Below are positions 33,218-49,147 of a stretch of 64,000 nucleotides of DNA, in pieces. The position numbers and the translations under genes are program-made. Every line of letters begins with the position of its first letter. The stretch's first letter is position 1. The DNA is from Jonesiaceae bacterium BS-20 (GTDB lineage: Bacteria > Actinomycetota > Actinomycetes > Actinomycetales > Cellulomonadaceae). The notes under the pieces were generated by a model. That model had not been told where the DNA came from. It did not search any database and saw nothing but the letters and a program-made list of their open reading frames with translations. The stretch is taken from positions 124,001 through 188,000 of the forward strand of contig CP146203.1 of NCBI GenBank assembly GCA_039995105.1, in the 5' to 3' direction.

Positions 33218-33244
33218 GATTGGCACCAATCGTTGGTGCCAATC
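33218..33244 (+). terminator. Hairpin after regX3
   Basis: Perfect 12-base arms at 33218-33229 and 33233-33244 with a 3-base loop. It begins 34 bases after the regX3 stop and probably ends the senX3-regX3 transcript. No T-run follows. Confidence 0.6.
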
Positions 33245-33334
33245 GACGGCCGGTCGAGTTGGGGCCGCAATGATACCGGTATCAAAACGGAGCGGTCATC
33301 CTGTTCAATAGCCTCGAGAACTGCTACTCTGCTA

Positions 33335-33352
33335 GATGTTTGGGTAAACATC
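33335..33352. promoter_or_regulatory. Operator-like palindrome upstream of the GH43 gene
   Basis: GATGTTT and AAACATC are perfect 7-base arms around GGGT. It lies 40 bases before the ATG, just after TACTCT at 33325-33330, where a repressor of the LacI or similar type could block transcription of the glycosidase. The regulator is not in the window. Confidence 0.4.
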
Positions 33353-33391
33353 GTGCCGGTTAGCGGTACTGAGGACAAGGAAGCCTTTTAC

Positions 33392-36328
33392 ATGACGAGG
33401 ACGTCACAGAGCGCCCCGGTGAAGTGGATGCGAACTCGCACCTTCGCCGCTGTGCTGACAACAGTTGCGCTAGGTTGCTCCGGCAGCCTGGCCATTGCGC
33501 CTGCTATCGCGGTGCCCGCAGGGAGCCTTAACGCCATCAGCTCCGTGGTGGGCCAAGATTTGGTGCTTGATCCCGCAGTCGGACTAGCCAGCCCGGTTGA
33601 CGTTGCGGTCGAAGCCGGCAAGAATCCGGCTTTGCCAACCGAAGTTGAGGTCACCACGGCCGGTGGTCAAACGCGCCTGGCTCAGGTGCAGTGGGACGTG
33701 AGCGGATACGAGTTCACCCGCAATTACGATTCCCTAACCGTCTACGGCGAAGCGGAGTCCGTCACGGTTCAAGCAACCGTGCACATCATCCCGGAAGGTC
33801 TTACCTACTTCATTGACTCTGGAAGCAGCAAGGACGGCTCAGCTGCCTTCGACGCTGTTCTCGCAGCCAAGGGGCTGGAACTTGCCAACCAAACGGCAGA
33901 CCAGCAGGCATCGGGAAACGCTTGGGGTTACCTAGCCGCAGGAGTCGACGGCACCCGCTCAAGCGGCAGTGCAGCAAACAAGTTCCAAAATGGACTGTAC
34001 GGCAAGAACAACTCGGCCGAACGGATCACCTACGTGCTACCGGACGTAGCCGCGGGAACCTACACCGTGACCTCGGGCGCAACCGAATGGTGGTCCGGGC
34101 CGCGCACCATGATCGCATCGGTTACGACCGCGGATGGAACCGCGGCAGACTTGGGCGCAGCGTATACCGTCAATGGATCCAAACGCGAAGCGATCGTGAC
34201 CGGCACAATCGTGCAGCCCCAAGATGGCGAGCTTCGTTTTGAGGTGCGGCGCTCGGCAGGCACCGAGGCCCCCGTGATCGCATGGTTGGCCGTTGCCGCC
34301 GGTGAGGTCGAGGTCCCAACCGTCAAGGAAGAACTAGCCGCCCCGGTTGCCTCCCTGGCCGCGGGTGCTTACAACAAGACGCAGCGCGTTGAACTGAGTT
34401 CAGCTACCGCCGATGCCGCAATCTTTTACACCCTGGACGGCTCCACGCCATCCAAGGCAACCGGTGAACTGTACACCGACGCAATCACGCTTGACAGCAC
34501 CACGACCCTCAAGGCCGTAGCGTTTAAAAATGGGCACGCCAGCGCGGTCATGAGTTCTGCATACCGGATTGAAATTGCCCCCGAGGGTGGCTATGAAGCC
34601 GTTCCGGTGGGGCAAACCTGGTTTGACACCGATGGCAACTCAATTCAGGCCCACGGCGGTGGCTTCCTGCAAAAGGACGGCTGGTACTACTGGGTTGGGG
34701 AAAACAAAGCCCACAACGGAGCCTCCCTGCACGCGGTAAGCCTGTACCGCTCACAGGACCTGAAAAACTGGGAATTCCTGAACAACATCATTACGACCGA
34801 GACTGCCGGCGTTTGTGAAACCGGAACCTACACGGACGCGAGCTGCAAGATCGAGCGCCCAAAGTTGGTCTACAACGAGCTGACGGACACCTACGTGGTT
34901 TGGGGTCACTGGGAAACCAAGGATTCCTACTCGGCTTCCCACCTCATTGTGGCCACGAGCAAGACCATCGACGGCGACTACGAGGTTGTGCGTAACTACC
35001 GCCCTGGAGTAGGCGAGGTCTCGACCGAGCATGCGGACCCAACCTACCCGGGCACCGACGGCAAATGGGGCTACGGCTCCCGTGACTTCACGGTCTTCAA
35101 AGACCCGGATTCCGATGCCGCATTCCTGATTTCCGCAGAAGACCACACGACCATGCGGGTATACCCGCTCACCGCGGACTACACGGACGTGGACTGGGAA
35201 AACTCCTACCAGCTCTTTATCGATGCCGGGCGTGAGGCACCAGCCGTAGTCAAGATTGATGGCACCTATTACGTGCTGACTTCTGGACAGTCCGGTTGGC
35301 AACCAAACCAAACCTATGTGGCCTCAACCAAGGACCTGTCCAAGGCTGACGGTTGGAGCGAGCTTGAGCCGGTTGGCAACAACACGAGCTTTGCCTCCCA
35401 GCCCACCAACATCATGACCATTGAGGGACAAGACGGAAACCGGTCCTACATTTACATGGGTGACCGTTGGGTCATGGGTGAGCTCGGTGCGTCAACCTAC
35501 GTCTGGTTGCCGCTCGAGATTGGCGCAGACGGCGTCAAGCTCGACTTCTACCCGGCCTGGGACTTTGATGTGGAATCCGGGACGGTAACCACCAAGCCAC
35601 TCGAGCTTGTTTCCGAGGGCAAACCGGTTGCTGCTTCTGCGGGTGCAAACCCGCAGATCGCAAACGATGGGTACTACTTCAACCTGAACAAGCACGGTGA
35701 GAGCTCGGCGTACTGGCAGCCCAGTTCGGTTCCGTTCTTCTGGTCCGTGGATCTTGAAGAGCCAACCGACCTAGGCCGCATTGACCTCGCCTGGAACAGC
35801 CACAACGGGTCAGAGCCGTATGCCGCTTACACCATCTCCGGTTCAAACGATGGCGTCACCTGGACCAAGTTGGCATCAAACCTGAACAACAAGCAGGTAG
35901 GGTTCACCAGCGAAAATCTGACTGGAACCTACCAGCACGTGCGCGTTGACGTTGCTGAAGTACGCAACATCCACAACGGAAACGAGGCTGCTTGGGCCGC
36001 GGGTCTAGTTGAGGTTCAGGTCTTTGCGCAGGCTCCAGAAATTACCGAGCCTACGCCTGAGCCGACTCCGGAACCAACGCCTGAGCCTTCACCTAAGCCC
36101 ACCGAGCCGGGATCAGAACTGCCCGGTGGGGACGGCGGCAACGCCGGTGCTGGGGACGCCGATGGTGGAGCTACCGATGGCGTGGATACCGATGACACCA
36201 CGACCGGCGGCGATTCCGCAGATGACCTGGCACAAACCGGTGCCCAAGTCATGGTGCCGGTCATGGCTGGTCTGCTGTTGCTGGTGGCCGGCGGGGGACT
36301 GTTGTTCCTGCGCCGCCGCACCGCCTAG
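33392..36328 (+). CDS. Sortase-anchored multidomain GH43 glycoside hydrolase
   Basis: Secreted cell-surface glycosidase of 978 residues; the ATG at 33392 follows AAGGAAG. Parts in order: signal peptide (about 1-40), Ig-like domain (about 50-130), a carbohydrate-binding-like beta domain (about 136-305), a chitobiase-type Ig domain (about 316-390, YTLDGSTPS), a five-bladed GH43 domain (about 403-732, with GWYYWVGENK and IERPKLVYN), a discoidin (F5/8 C) domain (about 743-880), a Pro/Glu/Thr linker, then the sorting signal LAQTG at 946-950, a membrane segment and a basic tail. The ERPK motif and lengths resemble the GH43 group acting on beta-1,3-galactan, an inference only. LAQTG points to a class E sortase. 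Confidence 0.88.
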   Translation: MTRTSQSAPVKWMRTRTFAAVLTTVALGCSGSLAIAPAIAVPAGSLNAISSVVGQDLVLDPAVGLASPVDVAVEAGKNPALPTEVEVTTAGGQTRLAQVQWDVSGYEFTRNYDSLTVYGEAESVTVQATVHIIPEGLTYFIDSGSSKDGSAAFDAVLAAKGLELANQTADQQASGNAWGYLAAGVDGTRSSGSAANKFQNGLYGKNNSAERITYVLPDVAAGTYTVTSGATEWWSGPRTMIASVTTADGTAADLGAAYTVNGSKREAIVTGTIVQPQDGELRFEVRRSAGTEAPVIAWLAVAAGEVEVPTVKEELAAPVASLAAGAYNKTQRVELSSATADAAIFYTLDGSTPSKATGELYTDAITLDSTTTLKAVAFKNGHASAVMSSAYRIEIAPEGGYEAVPVGQTWFDTDGNSIQAHGGGFLQKDGWYYWVGENKAHNGASLHAVSLYRSQDLKNWEFLNNIITTETAGVCETGTYTDASCKIERPKLVYNELTDTYVVWGHWETKDSYSASHLIVATSKTIDGDYEVVRNYRPGVGEVSTEHADPTYPGTDGKWGYGSRDFTVFKDPDSDAAFLISAEDHTTMRVYPLTADYTDVDWENSYQLFIDAGREAPAVVKIDGTYYVLTSGQSGWQPNQTYVASTKDLSKADGWSELEPVGNNTSFASQPTNIMTIEGQDGNRSYIYMGDRWVMGELGASTYVWLPLEIGADGVKLDFYPAWDFDVESGTVTTKPLELVSEGKPVAASAGANPQIANDGYYFNLNKHGESSAYWQPSSVPFFWSVDLEEPTDLGRIDLAWNSHNGSEPYAAYTISGSNDGVTWTKLASNLNNKQVGFTSENLTGTYQHVRVDVAEVRNIHNGNEAAWAAGLVEVQVFAQAPEITEPTPEPTPEPTPEPSPKPTEPGSELPGGDGGNAGAGDADGGATDGVDTDDTTTGGDSADDLAQTGAQVMVPVMAGLLLLVAGGGLLFLRRRTA

Positions 36329-42614: not shown

Positions 42615-42650
42615 TGGGTTGATTAGCTGGTCCTCCAGCTGGTCAACCCA
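42615..42650 (+). terminator. Terminator of the pst operon
   Basis: Eight outer pairs (42615-42622 with 42643-42650), two G-U pairs and six inner pairs (42625-42630 with 42635-42640) around a TCCT loop make a 16-bp stem, followed by TTCGTGTTTT. A smaller hairpin (42586-42601) lies just before it. Confidence 0.7.
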
Positions 42651-42999
42651 TTCGTGTTTTATGAGGACAAAGAAGTCTTTGCTGGGCGCCGCACCGCGTT
42701 CACTGCCCCGATCCGGGCGCGTTTCAAGAAGTGACAACTTTCACGTGCCCGTGTGGGTGACGGATGAAGGCACAGGTGGGAACACCATTTCAAAGCATCG
42801 GGGTAGAAGTCCCCTTCTGATGCGTTGGGAATCGTTGAATAGAAGTGCAGAGCAATAGCCCGGCTCCTCTAGCATGATTGAGTGCATCTTTGACCAAATG
42901 GGCGGTCCGCGTGCTTGGCCATCAATGGTGCGCTTGCCGCTGCGGATTTGCTGGTAGTTGGGCAAACTGACTCAAACAAGTGTTACCCGGGAGATTGTT
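42651..42999. other. Gene-poor stretch before the RCC1 pair
   Basis: About 350 bases after the pst terminator with no convincing gene. Short open frames on both strands (42619-42858 plus, 42549-42737 and 42741-42965 minus) show no recognisable motif or ribosome site. The promoter for the RCC1 genes is probably here. I see no insertion-sequence ends or repeats. Confidence 0.5.
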
Positions 43000-44997
43000 A
43001 TGGCTGAATTACCTGAAAGCGTCCAAGCATTGCGGCGAGAGTTGGCCGCTGCGCGCCAAGCCTTTGATCACGCACACTTCAGCTCAACCGCGCACCAGGA
43101 GCAAGTGGTCAGCAATGCCAAACAATTGATTCCAGCCGCCGTCGCGCAATGCGTGGCGCGGGGGGCCAGCCAAGCCGCCACACAGGTACTCCAAGAGCAG
43201 CTGCTTGCCCAAGTTGGGCCCTCCGCCGGGGTGACTTGGGCCGAGGTCATAGGCCAGGCGCTGTCACAAGCAGGGCAGAGCGCCAACGTGACAGGTTATG
43301 TTCCCGTGACGGGATATGTTCCGTCAAGCGCTCCTGAACAAGATAGCGGCGACCAGCCGGCGCCGTACTATGCCGATGCGGCTTTTGCCGCGTCCAGTGC
43401 CCCTTTCTCGATGCCTGGGCAGGGTTCCGACCAGCAGGTTCCACAACATGTTCCGGATGATCACCCCGTCCCATCTTCGCCGTGGGAGCCCACAGGCCCC
43501 GATCAGTCTGGGGCTCAGAGTAATAATGCGAGCAATAAGAAGAACGGTTTGGTTCTTGGGGTAATCGCGTTGGTCGCGGTCCTGATCCTTGGCGGCGCCA
43601 CCTATGGGATTGTGAACCTGTTGAAGAGCTCGACCTCCAATAGTTCCAATGCGAACAGCGGGAGTTCGTCTCAACCCGGCCCAAACACCACCTCAAACCC
43701 AAAGGGACCGAAGTCCAACGGGTCGGGCCCGGCCGTGCCGCAAGACGCACATGGGGACGTGGCGGTGTGGGGAAGCAGACCTTACCTGTCAAACGCACAG
43801 ACCCAGCCAATGCTGCCGGGTAACCCCGATCGGTATGCACCCGCGTGGGTACCCGATCTGACCGATGTTCAGGACATCACGCTTGGGTACAACTCCGGTT
43901 ATGCCCTGATGGCGGATGGCACGGTCAAAGCGTGGGGTTCAAACACCAATGGCGTCCTAGGCGTCAGCGGGACCGGCAACGACTCCCTCATGGTCGAGGT
44001 CGCCGGGCTCACAGACGTAAAGGAATTACTGACGAGTGCAGAAACAACGTACGCGCTGTTAGCCGACGGCACGGTCAAGTCCTGGGGGTTCAATAGCGAA
44101 GGGCAACTCGGTGACGGTAGCGATGTGAAGTTCTCGGATACGCCCGTGGATGTGAAGGGCCTTAGCGGTGTTAAAGCACTCAGTATCTCCGAGAATTCGG
44201 CCTACGCCCTGATGTCCGACGGCACGGTCATGGCATGGGGTGTCAATGATCGCGGGCAACTTGGAACTGGAGCAAATGTATTTCGATCGAACGTGCCAGT
44301 TCAGGTTCCCGATCTTGACGGGGTGGTCTCGGTTACTGCCGGATACAACTCGGCCTTTGCCGTGCTCGAAGACGGCTCGGTCAAGGGCTGGGGAGACAAC
44401 TACTTTTCAGATCCGAGCGGTGCGCAGGGCTACGTTCCGTTCTACGAGGTTCCAACCGTGGTTGAGGGACTCCAGGATGTGCGGAAAGTGGTCTCCTCTC
44501 GTAGGACCGTATACGCAATCCTCAATGACGGGACCGTCTTAGTCCTTGGAACGAGAGAAAATGGGGCAGCCGGAGATGGCAAGGATGAATGGGACTTCAC
44601 AAAACCCCAAGCGGTTCCAGGGGTGAGTAATGTCAACGATCTGGTTGTCGGCCGTGAAGCGGTCTTTGCCTTGCTTGGCGATGGCACCGTCATGTCGTGG
44701 GGCGGGAACGATTACGGGCTCCTAGGCCAGGGCAGCAAGAAGGAAGACAAGATCATGAAGCCCCAATTCATTGAGGAACTCACGAACGTGCAGAGCATTG
44801 CTGTTGGCTATGACACCGCCCACGCGACCCTTACCGATGGCACCGTCTTGAGCTGGGGTGCTCAGGCTGCGATGGACTCAGACACCTATTCCTATGACGA
44901 TCTGGTGACTAAACCGGAGAACATGTCGGGTCTGACCGGGGTGCGAACCCTGTATGCCGGTGAATTTGGTTTCTATGCGATTATCCCAACAAATTAG
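43000..44997 (+). CDS. Membrane-anchored RCC1-repeat beta-propeller protein, copy 1
   Basis: Function unknown. The ATG at 43000 follows GGGAGA and gives 665 residues. An N-terminal helical domain (about 1-95, ending in AGVTWAEVIGQAL) is probably cytoplasmic. It is followed by a Pro/Gln/Ser-rich tether, one transmembrane segment (about 182-206), a Ser/Asn/Pro spacer, and from about residue 250 an RCC1-type propeller of seven full repeats of the form ALxxDGTVxxWGxNxxGxLG. A split repeat is formed by the first strand (VAVWGS) and the last (FYAIIPTN), suggesting about eight blades outside the cell. The next gene is a diverged copy with the same architecture. The pair has no recognisable enzyme domain. 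Confidence 0.85.
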   Translation: MAELPESVQALRRELAAARQAFDHAHFSSTAHQEQVVSNAKQLIPAAVAQCVARGASQAATQVLQEQLLAQVGPSAGVTWAEVIGQALSQAGQSANVTGYVPVTGYVPSSAPEQDSGDQPAPYYADAAFAASSAPFSMPGQGSDQQVPQHVPDDHPVPSSPWEPTGPDQSGAQSNNASNKKNGLVLGVIALVAVLILGGATYGIVNLLKSSTSNSSNANSGSSSQPGPNTTSNPKGPKSNGSGPAVPQDAHGDVAVWGSRPYLSNAQTQPMLPGNPDRYAPAWVPDLTDVQDITLGYNSGYALMADGTVKAWGSNTNGVLGVSGTGNDSLMVEVAGLTDVKELLTSAETTYALLADGTVKSWGFNSEGQLGDGSDVKFSDTPVDVKGLSGVKALSISENSAYALMSDGTVMAWGVNDRGQLGTGANVFRSNVPVQVPDLDGVVSVTAGYNSAFAVLEDGSVKGWGDNYFSDPSGAQGYVPFYEVPTVVEGLQDVRKVVSSRRTVYAILNDGTVLVLGTRENGAAGDGKDEWDFTKPQAVPGVSNVNDLVVGREAVFALLGDGTVMSWGGNDYGLLGQGSKKEDKIMKPQFIEELTNVQSIAVGYDTAHATLTDGTVLSWGAQAAMDSDTYSYDDLVTKPENMSGLTGVRTLYAGEFGFYAIIPTN

Positions 44998-45054
44998 CAA
45001 TGAGTTCCTAACTTTTTCTGTTGCAGCACTCGAATCTTTTTAAGGACAAAGATC

Positions 45055-47151
45055 GTGGCCGACGAGCCTGACAGCATTTATCACCTCCGCCTAGACCTTG
45101 CGGCATACCGAGAGTCATTTTCGTATGCGCACCTCAACTCCCAGATGCACCAGGAACGCGTACTGGGAGCAAGCAAGGGGAACTTGGCGGCCGCGGCAAT
45201 CCGCTGTGTCACAGAAGGAAGTGGCGAACAAGCCTACGCCTTGCTCAAAGCCGAACAAGGAGTCCACGGCGGCGTAGCCGCAGGTGTCACGTGGGCCGAG
45301 GTCATCGGCCACGCGATTACGGAAATGCTTGAGGCATCGGAAAACACAAACGCTGGCTGGCTGATAACCGGCGATGTAGACCCGTTTGCGGGCGGCAACC
45401 AGCAAGGCACTTCCACCGGATTTCAAGGTGCTCTGGGGTCAACCTGGGGCGACCAAGCGGCCCTCAACCCGCAATCCACAACCGGGGCAGACGGCGTTAT
45501 TTTTGACCGTCGCGAGCCAACCCTGCCGGGTGCCCCTAGTCAGGCGCCAATGTTTTCCGGAACTGAATTGTATGCGGCTCCGCAGGCCAAAGCGCACCCA
45601 AAGGCTACTCCACGAACGCAATCCGAACCGCTTACTCCAACCCCCGCATACTATTCTTCGCCCGTAACGGATCCGGGGACGGCAACGAAAGCCAGCTTTG
45701 GCGGTTACCTGAAGCCAGCGCTGGCTCGCAAGAAGTTCCACATTGTGTTCCTGAGTCTGCTTGCCATCCTCTTCATTGTTTCGCGGATGGCGGCCATGGA
45801 TTTTCCTTGGCAATCCGCTCCCTCGGTCGAGGCACCGGAAACGGTTGCGCCGGTCCCACCCACGGTAGAGGACCTCCAAGAGAGCGTTTCGGAGTTTGGG
45901 GAGCCCGGCAATCTTTCCTACTGGGGCGGGTTCAACTCATACGACTATCAGCATTGGACTAATGGCAGCAACGCCCAGATTGGCAGTGCTGAGAATCCCT
46001 TCGCGGTTACCTCGGTGCTTGGCCTAGATGGAGTCCAACAGATCGTTTCCAACGAGTTCAATGCGTACGCCCTGATGGACAACGGCACCGTAACAGCCTG
46101 GGGGAGTAACTCCAGTGGGGGCCGCGGCGGGGACACAACCGATTACCTGAACGAGCCCAACCAAGTAGTGGGGCTGGCGGATGTTGTCCAAATAGAAACC
46201 TCCTTCTTGTCCGCCGTTGCGGTCCTTGAAGACGGCACGGTTTGGACCTGGGGCTCCAACGAAAACGGCATACTCGGAATCGGAAGCAATGAGGAATATT
46301 CGGCGGTACCGGAACTCGTGCCGGGCCTAGACAATGTGGTTTTCGTCAGTGCCTCCAATCAGACCGTGTACGCACTGCGCCAAGATGGCACGGTGTGGGC
46401 CTGGGGCGCAAACGAACGCGGGAATCTGGGCGATGGGTCAAAGGTGGACTACTCCAACGTGCCAGTTCAGGTTGCGGGCCTGAGCGACGTACAGACGGTT
46501 GTAGCGGGCCCGGAAACTGGCTATGCAGTGCTGACGGATGGCACCGTATGGGGCTGGGGTTCCAATGCCTTCAACCTCTTGGGTGCGGGAGGCACACCTG
46601 CGATACCTGAACCGGTACAACTGCCGGGCTTGGCTGGCGTGCAAACGGTGAGCCCGGGGTATTACGCGTCCTATGCAATCCTGGCGGATGGAACTGCTAT
46701 GGCGTGGGGCGCTTCCCTGTACGGCATGCTTGGGGATGGTCTTGATACCGGGCAACCGATGGCGCCCGGTCAGATCTCCGGGCTCAACAACGTGAAGTCG
46801 ATTGTGGCCGACCGCAATATTGCGTACGCCGTCTTGGACGATGGAACCGCCATGGCCTGGGGGAGCAACAAGTACGGTCTGCTAGGGATTGGCAGTGAAG
46901 GGTTTGATCAGATGAGCGGAGTTGTGCCGGTTCAGGATCTGACCAACGTTGACTATATTTCTATTGGCCTGTATTCCACCCACGCACTGCTGGACGACGG
47001 CACGGTCGCAACCTGGGGCATGAAGGATCTGCGGAACATGGGGCAGGAAGACGTAGAGATGTGGACCGCGCCCCAGATAGTTGAAAACCTGAGCAATGTA
47101 ACCGGTATTGACACCGGAATCATGGGGAATTACGCGGTCATTGGGCAGTAA
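45055..47151 (+). CDS. Membrane-anchored RCC1-repeat beta-propeller protein, copy 2
   Basis: Paralogue of the preceding gene, 57 bases downstream, probably cotranscribed. 698 residues from a GTG preceded by AAGGACA. The N-terminal domain (about 1-95) aligns with copy 1 (HQERV, CVTEG, AGVTWAEVIGHAI). It is followed by a tether, a transmembrane segment (about 226-248), and a propeller of seven full RCC1 repeats plus a split one (LSYWGG at the start, NYAVIGQ at the end). The propeller repeats vary more than the N-terminal signature, as in a ligand-binding surface, but the ligand is unknown. Confidence 0.85.
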   Translation: MADEPDSIYHLRLDLAAYRESFSYAHLNSQMHQERVLGASKGNLAAAAIRCVTEGSGEQAYALLKAEQGVHGGVAAGVTWAEVIGHAITEMLEASENTNAGWLITGDVDPFAGGNQQGTSTGFQGALGSTWGDQAALNPQSTTGADGVIFDRREPTLPGAPSQAPMFSGTELYAAPQAKAHPKATPRTQSEPLTPTPAYYSSPVTDPGTATKASFGGYLKPALARKKFHIVFLSLLAILFIVSRMAAMDFPWQSAPSVEAPETVAPVPPTVEDLQESVSEFGEPGNLSYWGGFNSYDYQHWTNGSNAQIGSAENPFAVTSVLGLDGVQQIVSNEFNAYALMDNGTVTAWGSNSSGGRGGDTTDYLNEPNQVVGLADVVQIETSFLSAVAVLEDGTVWTWGSNENGILGIGSNEEYSAVPELVPGLDNVVFVSASNQTVYALRQDGTVWAWGANERGNLGDGSKVDYSNVPVQVAGLSDVQTVVAGPETGYAVLTDGTVWGWGSNAFNLLGAGGTPAIPEPVQLPGLAGVQTVSPGYYASYAILADGTAMAWGASLYGMLGDGLDTGQPMAPGQISGLNNVKSIVADRNIAYAVLDDGTAMAWGSNKYGLLGIGSEGFDQMSGVVPVQDLTNVDYISIGLYSTHALLDDGTVATWGMKDLRNMGQEDVEMWTAPQIVENLSNVTGIDTGIMGNYAVIGQ

Positions 47152-47264: not shown

Positions 47265-47831
47265 ATGCGTACCTTGATTGTCACCGCGTTTGTTTCTGCC
47301 GATGGAGTGATGGAGGCGCCCGGCGGCGAACCCGGATACCGCAACGCGGGCTGGACCTTCAAAGATATTGCGTTTGATCCGGCAGCCTACGCAATCAAGG
47401 GAAGCGAGCAGGAAGAGGCCGGGGCGCTGCTCCTGGGGCGCAAGAGCTATCAGGCCTTCGCGCCGGTGTGGCCAACCATGGACGACTTTGCCCGCTACAA
47501 CACACTGCCGCGTTACGTGGTTTCCACAACCCTCGAATCCGACGACGATCGTTGGCCCGCAACAATCTTGCGTTCGGTTGCTGACGTTGCGAAGTTGAAG
47601 CAGACCGAGGGCGGTCCGCTTCTGGTGCACGGCTCGGCCGAGCTGGGCGCTGCCCTTGCCGATGCCGGCCTCGTTGACCGCTATCATCTGCTGGTTTTTC
47701 CGGTCTTGCTTGGGGCAGGAAAGCGCCTCTTCAGCGAAGCGGATAAGGACACCACGCATCTGAACCTAGTTGCGCATGAAGCTTACGGCAACGGCATCAC
47801 CAAGATGATTTATGACGTGGTGTGTGACTAG
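47265..47831 (+). CDS. Dihydrofolate reductase-like protein (RibD C-terminal domain family)
   Basis: 188 residues of the NADPH-binding RibD_C family, often called dihydrofolate reductase family protein. Recognised by the start LIVTAFVSADGVMEAPGG, the motif LLLGRKSYQAFAPVWP, GGPLLVHGSAELGAAL and LVFPVLLGAGKRLF. The substrate is unknown; these are seldom true folate reductases. AAAGGAC precedes the ATG. The stop codon interlocks with that of the convergent lipoprotein gene. Confidence 0.85.
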   Translation: MRTLIVTAFVSADGVMEAPGGEPGYRNAGWTFKDIAFDPAAYAIKGSEQEEAGALLLGRKSYQAFAPVWPTMDDFARYNTLPRYVVSTTLESDDDRWPATILRSVADVAKLKQTEGGPLLVHGSAELGAALADAGLVDRYHLLVFPVLLGAGKRLFSEADKDTTHLNLVAHEAYGNGITKMIYDVVCD

Positions 47832-48277
47832 GGCTGCCAGCGGACCGAATCCGCACAAGGGGTAATACCCGTGGCTTCCCCGGCCAGACAGATGCCGTCG
47901 ACCATCTCCCGGTCTCCAATGGGCTCATCCAGCTTGACGGTTACCGGGACGGCGTCATTACCGGGGCAGGTGAACACGGCATCGGGGTCCTCGTGGGGGA
48001 CAACATCGGAGCGAATAATAATCTGATCAGGCTCGTATGAGACTATCGGTTGCTCAATCTCCCCGGTCATGCCGCTAGCGCAAGCAATTCGGGTGACACC
48101 AATGTCTATGCTCGTGGAATCGGGCGTCACTTGCCCTGGGTCCATGAGCTCCCACGTGCCCTCGGCGCCCGGAGCTGGGGCTGACGTGGCAGAACTATCG
48201 CTTCCACAGGCAGCGAGGACAAGTACCGCTGCGGTGGTAAGTGCAAGTAGGAACTTGGGGGCGCGTACGGATCTCAC
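47828..48277 (-). CDS. Hypothetical lipoprotein
   Basis: About 149 residues from a GTG at 48277, chosen because GGAGG lies five bases upstream. Lipoprotein signal peptide with lipobox LAAC, then a Ser/Ala-rich spacer and a small domain with several cysteines (IACASGMTGE, FTCPGNDAV, GICLAGEATG, TPCADS) that may form disulfides. No family recognised. The terminator of the upstream lipoprotein gene lies between them. Confidence 0.65.
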   Translation of the reverse strand: MRSVRAPKFLLALTTAAVLVLAACGSDSSATSAPAPGAEGTWELMDPGQVTPDSTSIDIGVTRIACASGMTGEIEQPIVSYEPDQIIIRSDVVPHEDPDAVFTCPGNDAVPVTVKLDEPIGDREMVDGICLAGEATGITPCADSVRWQP

Positions 48278-48333
48278 AGGTACCTCCATTGGAACCAAAT
48301 TTGGAGACTGGGGAACGGGCATCGGAAAAAATA

Positions 48334-48384
48334 AAGGGCTGGAACGTAGTTTGGCGGTTGCCAAAAGTCTACGTTCCAGCCCTT
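48334..48384 (-). terminator. Hairpin between the two lipoprotein genes
   Basis: Fifteen-base arms (48334-48348 and 48370-48384) with an inner TTGGC/GCCAA stem. It follows the LpqE-like gene on the minus strand. Confidence 0.65.
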
Positions 48385-48437
48385 GCAAAGTCACTCATTG
48401 AGGTGACTTGAAAACTGGGAAACAGCGCTACTAAGGA

Positions 48438-48920
48438 TCAGGGAACCAGCGGTGCGTACTCCTCGAGGGTGCCATCCAAAACCGGGATGTTGAGGTTTGC
48501 GGTGTTACCGGCAATGTCCTCAAATGTTGCGGTTACGTTGGAGCCCGGCATTGCGTCCAGGGACTCAATGATCTGGGTTGGTTCGTTGTTCTCGGTGAAG
48601 TTGATCAGCTCACCGGCAGCGATTTCAAAGATCATCTCAAACGAGCCGTCGGTCGCGGCGATGCGAACAGCGGAGTCTTCATCTGAGTAGTTCTTCAACG
48701 CGCCACCGACAACAGCGGGTGCACCATTACCGTTGCTGATCAGCATGAAGTTTTGGGTTTCGATTCCGCTGTCCAGTGCGATGCGGATACCGTCTGATGG
48801 AGCATAGTGAATATCCGTCTGGGACGGGGCGCAGGCGGCGGCGCCAAGCACTAGACCGCCGGCAAGTACTGCACCAACAACCGCGCGAACCGGGCGGGAG
48901 GCTGTAACTTGGGTAAACAT
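48438..48920 (-). CDS. LpqE-like lipoprotein
   Basis: 160 residues from an ATG at 48920 with AGGAG upstream. Signal peptide with lipobox AAAC, then a beta-sandwich-like domain (IHYAPSDGIRIAL, ALKNYSDEDSAVRI). Mycobacterial LpqE is likewise encoded beside carD, and the sequence shape is similar, but identity is not proven. Envelope role unknown. Divergent from carD. Confidence 0.65.
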   Translation of the reverse strand: MFTQVTASRPVRAVVGAVLAGGLVLGAAACAPSQTDIHYAPSDGIRIALDSGIETQNFMLISNGNGAPAVVGGALKNYSDEDSAVRIAATDGSFEMIFEIAAGELINFTENNEPTQIIESLDAMPGSNVTATFEDIAGNTANLNIPVLDGTLEEYAPLVP

Positions 48921-49147
48921 TGACACTCCTGTGAGCAAGCGGGTGCGGGTAAACGCCGCATTGAAAAGCGCTGCCCACATGGGCCTCAAGGGTAGCGCGA
49001 ACAATTCAGATTCTATACTGCACGCACAAGGTCAGTGTGACGATTTGTTATGAAACTTACCACGTTCAACACGCCGGGGTGCGGTTTGGCTTGACATCGC
49101 CCGACTGGCCGTGAATGATTCCGCCACTGAAATGCAGTTACGCGTGA

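Follow-up and report, generated by a model that had tools for sequence, protein, structure and literature searches.

What is the role of two adjacent genes whose products each appear to expose an RCC1 propeller at the cell surface and to keep a small domain of no recognised family in the cytoplasm? The question is raised by genes A and B of Jonesiaceae bacterium BS-20, which lie in a 64,000-nucleotide stretch of contig CP146203.1 (positions 124,001 to 188,000; the window, whose numbering is used below). Our analysis suggests that their products are particular to this lineage, cross the membrane once and bind at the cell surface in the manner of an adhesin or receptor, with an N-terminal domain (N-domain) that acts in the cytoplasm to retain the protein or to dock a partner, a reading to which we give somewhat better than an even chance.

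Two paralogues with one domain plan

Genes A and B are arranged head to tail on the same strand and are separated by 57 bases (Table 1). The initial annotation had described them as adjacent paralogues sharing one plan, and this description held, as both open reading frames (ORFs) were found, both contain RCC1 domains with E-values of about 1e-70 or better, and their blades are in register. Each protein begins with the N-domain and a tether, continues through a single stretch of strong hydrophobicity and a further short stalk, and ends in an RCC1-like domain (RLD) that reaches the C-terminus.

Comparison of A with B revealed 42% identity in the N-domain (90 ungapped columns) and 42% in the propeller, whereas the tether was 24% identical with many gaps. 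The proportion of synonymous differences (pS, 0.66-0.76) was near saturation throughout, and the proportion of nonsynonymous differences (pN) was 0.40 for the N-domain, 0.44 for the propeller and 0.61 for the tether. When blades were compared one by one, the mean score peaked at shift 0, and blades 3, 4, 6 and 7 picked their own counterparts. These identities, pN values and the blade register indicate an old tandem duplication since which both end domains have been conserved and the tether has diverged. A pN of 0.40 at saturated synonymous sites also argues that the N-domain is under selection rather than a chance likeness. Thus, of the proposal that selection acts on the pair, the part that stands is selection on each domain, as shown by pN, and not on the pair as a unit.

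Both propellers matched Pfam PF25390 (E=4.5e-73 and 247 bits for A, 9.7e-71 and 239 bits for B; cut-off 150) and PF00415 (110 and 132 bits; cut-off 21.7). In each, seven full repeats of 50-52 residues are flanked by the N-terminal half (VAVWG..., LSYWG...) and the C-terminal half (...FYAII, ...NYAVI) of one split repeat, where the AlphaFold model of protein A has beta strands (254-257 and 650-661). Such 2-2 closure is a trait of RCC1 domains (PMC8458387). The initial annotation had counted these repeats correctly but had not drawn out their total, and since seven full repeats and one split repeat are present, each propeller is probably eight-bladed. Canonical RCC1 has seven blades (Renault 1998, as cited in PMC8458387), and no description of an eight-bladed RCC1 domain was found in the literature, coverage of which was incomplete. 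The same repeat profile gave seven or fewer repeats for most RCC1 propellers of relatives; a few frames had longer runs of 14, 11, 10 and 8 (the last in a truncated frame), which may be two propellers fused in the count. Blade number differs among propellers, and the eight-repeat count is a variant within the RCC1 family, one that would be of structural interest as an RCC1-class blade-number variant. The AlphaFold model contains seven strand triplets plus the split-blade strands, at a confidence too low to prove the blade count, and fits seven-bladed RLDs well (Z ~19-23, rmsd (root-mean-square deviation) ~4-5 and ~300 residues aligned against HERC, UVR8 and RCC1 propellers).

The tether and single membrane segment were likewise as originally described. 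One 19-residue window per protein exceeded a Kyte-Doolittle hydropathy of 2.4, and the hydrophobic stretch is preceded by 182 residues in A and 227 in B. In the model of protein A, residues 93-180 after the N-domain form low-confidence coil, suggesting that the tether is probably disordered; residues 181-208 form a helix, and the propeller follows. Lysine and arginine residues flanking the segment number two (A) and four (B) on the N-terminal side and one and none on the C-terminal side, and the predicted extracellular parts of both proteins lack cysteines. This hydrophobicity, positive-inside bias and lack of outside cysteines are consistent with a single-pass type II topology, with the N-terminus inside and the C-terminus outside, in agreement with the initial annotation. 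Neither protein has an LPxTG-like motif, and the propeller ends both chains.

The N-terminal domain and its distribution

The AGVTWAEVIG block of the N-domain is identical in A and B, and Cys51, the sole cysteine of each protein, occupies the same alignment column. Together with the 42% identity and four helices predicted for protein A (6-25, 30-53, 57-69 and 80-90), this bears out the conserved helical domain of the initial annotation. The models of protein A have no helix past residue 90-92 before the tether, at modest confidence. A Type VII secretion (WxG-like) reading of the region was dropped, as a WxG/YxxxD-E pair is absent and a membrane helix follows.

The suggestion that this domain is undescribed also agreed with our searches. 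Profile searches of Pfam, NCBIfam and PHROGs at permissive E-values (up to 10) returned only noise, as did PDB sequences (best E=0.66). Within its own genome the N-domain occurs in these two genes only. None of the other 221 genomes searched in the taxonomic family contains it (150 were covered first and then all 222, with the source genome, the only one of its genus in the set, as the sole match). Wider searches used a profile of two rows and scored about 12 candidates per genome. A sample of 396 genomes of the order gave weak matches only (E 0.0015-0.1), and a sample of 396 genomes of the phylum gave three weak partial matches over 35-56 positions, which were not read residue by residue. The ten best-looking matches from the order were rejected on reading, being internal, partial, other-frame or low-complexity, with one a helix-turn-helix (HTH). 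Pattern scans of genome contigs and viral contigs, which depend on the conserved motif, found no relative, and tblastn found no match in plasmid and phage records. By its sequence, then, the N-domain appears to be an orphan domain, outside known families and found so far only in this gene pair.

The site of the pair is recognisable in most of 20 relatives by pstB, sometimes an extra gene, a counterpart of the second lipoprotein-like gene downstream of the pair (opposite strand), and carD or ispD, with carD sometimes masked by an overlapping frame in simple gene calling. None of the 20 has an RCC1 gene at this site, and because the relatives have the site without RCC1 genes, we regard the pair as a lineage-specific insertion. 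RCC1 proteins do occur in 17 other genomes of the 150-genome family sample; those examined mostly have signal-peptide-like starts and often LPxTG-like motifs, and none was seen to have a long cytoplasmic N-domain. The closest propeller relative outside the genome (L138, G288 contig 267) is a secreted, stand-alone protein of 392 amino acids (aa) with seven repeats and ~41% identity. The proposal of a conserved tandem system is therefore unsupported, since the N-domain is missing from the other genomes searched and the relatives' site lacks RCC1 genes. The initial annotation had offered homologues without a conserved tandem arrangement as grounds for giving up its proposal, which is effectively what was found or at best leaves the proposal untestable.

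The genome itself encodes a third N-terminally membrane-anchored RCC1 protein (492 aa; L013:4001-5479, C1:2693000-2694478). Like the pair, it has an N-terminal membrane helix, a Pro/Thr-rich stalk, and eight repeats, of which seven are full and one is split; unlike the pair, it keeps only ~23 residues inside, has no N-domain and shows blades out of register with those of A and B. Because this protein is anchored without it, the N-domain is dispensable for anchoring, and the N-terminal anchor is not tied to it.

Surface binding, signalling and other explanations

There is precedent in actinobacteria for surface RCC1 proteins encoded in tandem: honeybee bifidobacteria have LPxTG-anchored RCC1-repeat surface proteins of this kind (PMC4449606). 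Like genes A and B, these are actinobacterial, lineage-specific tandem duplicates with diverging paralogues and an RCC1 propeller outside the cell. In contrast, the bifidobacterial proteins have a C-terminal LPxTG anchor, Flg_new repeats and 2-4 propeller domains of ~7 repeats, whereas A and B have an N-terminal membrane helix, a cytoplasmic domain, a single eight-repeat propeller and no LPxTG motif. Other bacterial cases include PilX2, an RCC1 pilin of Saccharibacteria that is an adhesin candidate (PMC12206443), and BLIP-II, a secreted RCC1-class protein binder that inhibits beta-lactamase (PMC9218822). BLIP-II resembles the pair in having its propeller outside the cell but is freely secreted, with no anchor or N-domain. 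It has seven shorter blades. Eukaryotic RCC1, UVR8 and the HERC RLDs, which are intracellular, have the repeat family and fold in common with the pair and, unlike it, no membrane helix. The term "undescribed system" was thus too strong, given that no conservation of the pair was seen beyond its own genome; what is new here is that surface RCC1 proteins combine an orphan domain on the cytoplasmic side with what are probably eight blades. RCC1 propellers abound in bacteria, mostly with obscure ligands, and the cases sampled or described are mostly free or C-terminally attached. Two such proteins linked across the membrane to a cytoplasmic domain under constraint would offer a handle on propeller role, through N-domain partners and propeller ligands.

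In the surface-binding reading that we prefer, the propeller would stand outside the cell on a flexible stalk as a ligand-binding or adhesion head, and the helical N-domain would lie on the cytoplasmic side, where it could dock, oligomerise or signal. By analogy with other RCC1 proteins and BLIP-II, the propeller may bind a ligand or surface; that the N-domain binds something inside the cell is a step that we infer. As a proposal, the receptor or adhesion pair of the initial annotation is plausible. Several observations weigh against this reading. The model of the whole of protein A (two sequences) is of low confidence (predicted local distance difference test (pLDDT) 57.5, predicted template modelling score (pTM) 0.53), and that of the N-domain is weak (pLDDT 67.7); a fold search with the N-domain found only common helical bundles, with a best Z of 8.7 that is within noise for such bundles. 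In addition, no adjoining gene suggests itself as a partner, and the third protein is anchored without an N-domain, so the role of the domain may be minor. A more ambitious version strikes us as doubtful: here the N-domain would be a new type of domain for signalling or docking in the cytoplasm, coupled to eight-bladed extracellular propellers, and the paralogues would act jointly, perhaps as a heteromer, to form a transmembrane receptor of an external ligand.

Surface binding with a docking N-domain is favoured over true transmembrane signalling, in which a propeller ligand would change the state of the N-domain and hence act on a cytoplasmic partner in the manner of an anti-sigma factor or of ToxR/CadC; we consider this possible but clearly the less likely of the two. 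Membrane anti-sigma factors of the RskA/RsiW type and ToxR/CadC-type regulators have a small cytoplasmic N-domain, one membrane helix and an extracellular sensor, the same order of parts as in A and B, and the N-domain is constrained and carries a lone conserved cysteine. Unlike those regulators, the pair shows no N-domain sequence match, partner gene or recognition helix. No extracytoplasmic function (ECF) sigma gene, kinase or regulator gene adjoins it, and anti-sigma profiles of Pfam and NCBIfam gave only noise up to E=10, which is weak evidence because anti-sigma domains diverge strongly. HTH family profiles of the same databases likewise had no match at that threshold. The AGVTWAEVIGQAL stretch does resemble a helix of an actinobacterial HTH (AGLTWAEIGQAAGIARQSAHERW in L018), but the HTH-like motif has one extra residue and the N-domain of protein A is not basic; an HTH reading of AGVTWAEVIG was rejected, as the models of protein A contain no recognition helix after the motif.

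The remaining explanations give the N-terminal region a lesser part. If the N-domain were passive, as a cytoplasmic anchor plug or a fusion leftover, A and B would be ordinary membrane-anchored surface propellers, which would suit both the third propeller with its similar anchor and no N-domain and the failure to meet the domain outside the pair in our searches; yet the N-domain is as conserved as the propeller, unlike the intervening tether, and we think this explanation unlikely. Still less credible, to the point of being very improbable, is that the extended N-terminus works as a signal peptide or secretion signal of an unusual kind, from which the propeller is released, as the signal-peptide-like starts of most relatives' RCC1 proteins and a weak cleavage-like site in gene A (GGA|T, near the end of the hydrophobic stretch) might suggest. 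The 182 and 227 residues before the hydrophobic stretch include a constrained domain, gene B offers no convincing site for cleavage (IVSRMAAMDF), and an LPxTG motif is absent.

The locus and other RCC1 genes

A link of the pair to phosphate uptake was rejected, as a strong terminator-like hairpin intervenes and relatives have pst genes here without the pair. This hairpin has by far the longest stem in the terminator scan, in which the count of terminator-like sites equalled the shuffle mean, and it sets the gene pair apart from the pst operon.

Table 1. Features of the gene pair and its upstream region (window coordinates).
Feature	Position	Strand	Evidence
Rho-independent terminator-like hairpin, 16 pairs, T-rich tail, after pstB	42615..42650	+	terminator scan
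Shine-Dalgarno-like GGGAG, 6 bases 5' of gene A ATG	42989..42993	+	sequence
Gene A (P0001, 665 aa): N-domain, tether, membrane segment, RCC1 propeller	43000..44997	+	ORF, Pfam, AlphaFold
Gene A N-domain (aa 1-92): four predicted helices, AGVTWAEVIG, lone Cys51	43000..43275	+	alignment, AlphaFold
Gene A predicted membrane helix (aa 181-208)	43540..43623	+	hydropathy, AlphaFold
Gene A RCC1 propeller (aa 253-663): seven full repeats and one split 2-2 repeat	43756..44988	+	Pfam, alignment, AlphaFold, fold search
Shine-Dalgarno-like AAGGA, 5' of gene B GTG	45042..45046	+	sequence
Gene B (P0002, 698 aa): paralogue of gene A, same plan	45055..47151	+	ORF, Pfam
Gene B N-domain (aa 1-95)	45055..45339	+	alignment
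Gene B predicted membrane segment (~aa 228-248), ARKKFH just before	45736..45798	+	hydropathy, alignment
Gene B RCC1 propeller (aa 283-698): seven full repeats and one split repeat	45901..47148	+	Pfam, alignment

Downstream of gene B come a reductase gene of the RibD_C type, a pair of lipoprotein-like genes on the opposite strand, carD and ispD. The lipoprotein-like genes (47828-48394 and 48438-49004, minus strand) are small, adjacent, of equal length and without a Pfam match, and the second is kept between pstB and carD in most relatives at ~29-42% identity. Upstream of pstS, positions 33233-36328 encode a large protein of secreted type that matches chitobiase C-terminal, Fn3-associated and F5/8 type C domains and, weakly, GH43.

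Elsewhere in the genome, an RCC1 gene broken into pieces and pseudogene-like, with an LPETG-type C-terminal anchor (L012:3493-5030, near C1:105500-106100), adjoins a large LamG/glycoside-hydrolase-like surface protein. Another RCC1 gene was noted at L011:3937-6063 (minus strand); it lies near an istA/istB-like transposase pair and encodes a secreted seven-repeat protein with an Ig-like part and an LADTG-type C-terminal anchor.

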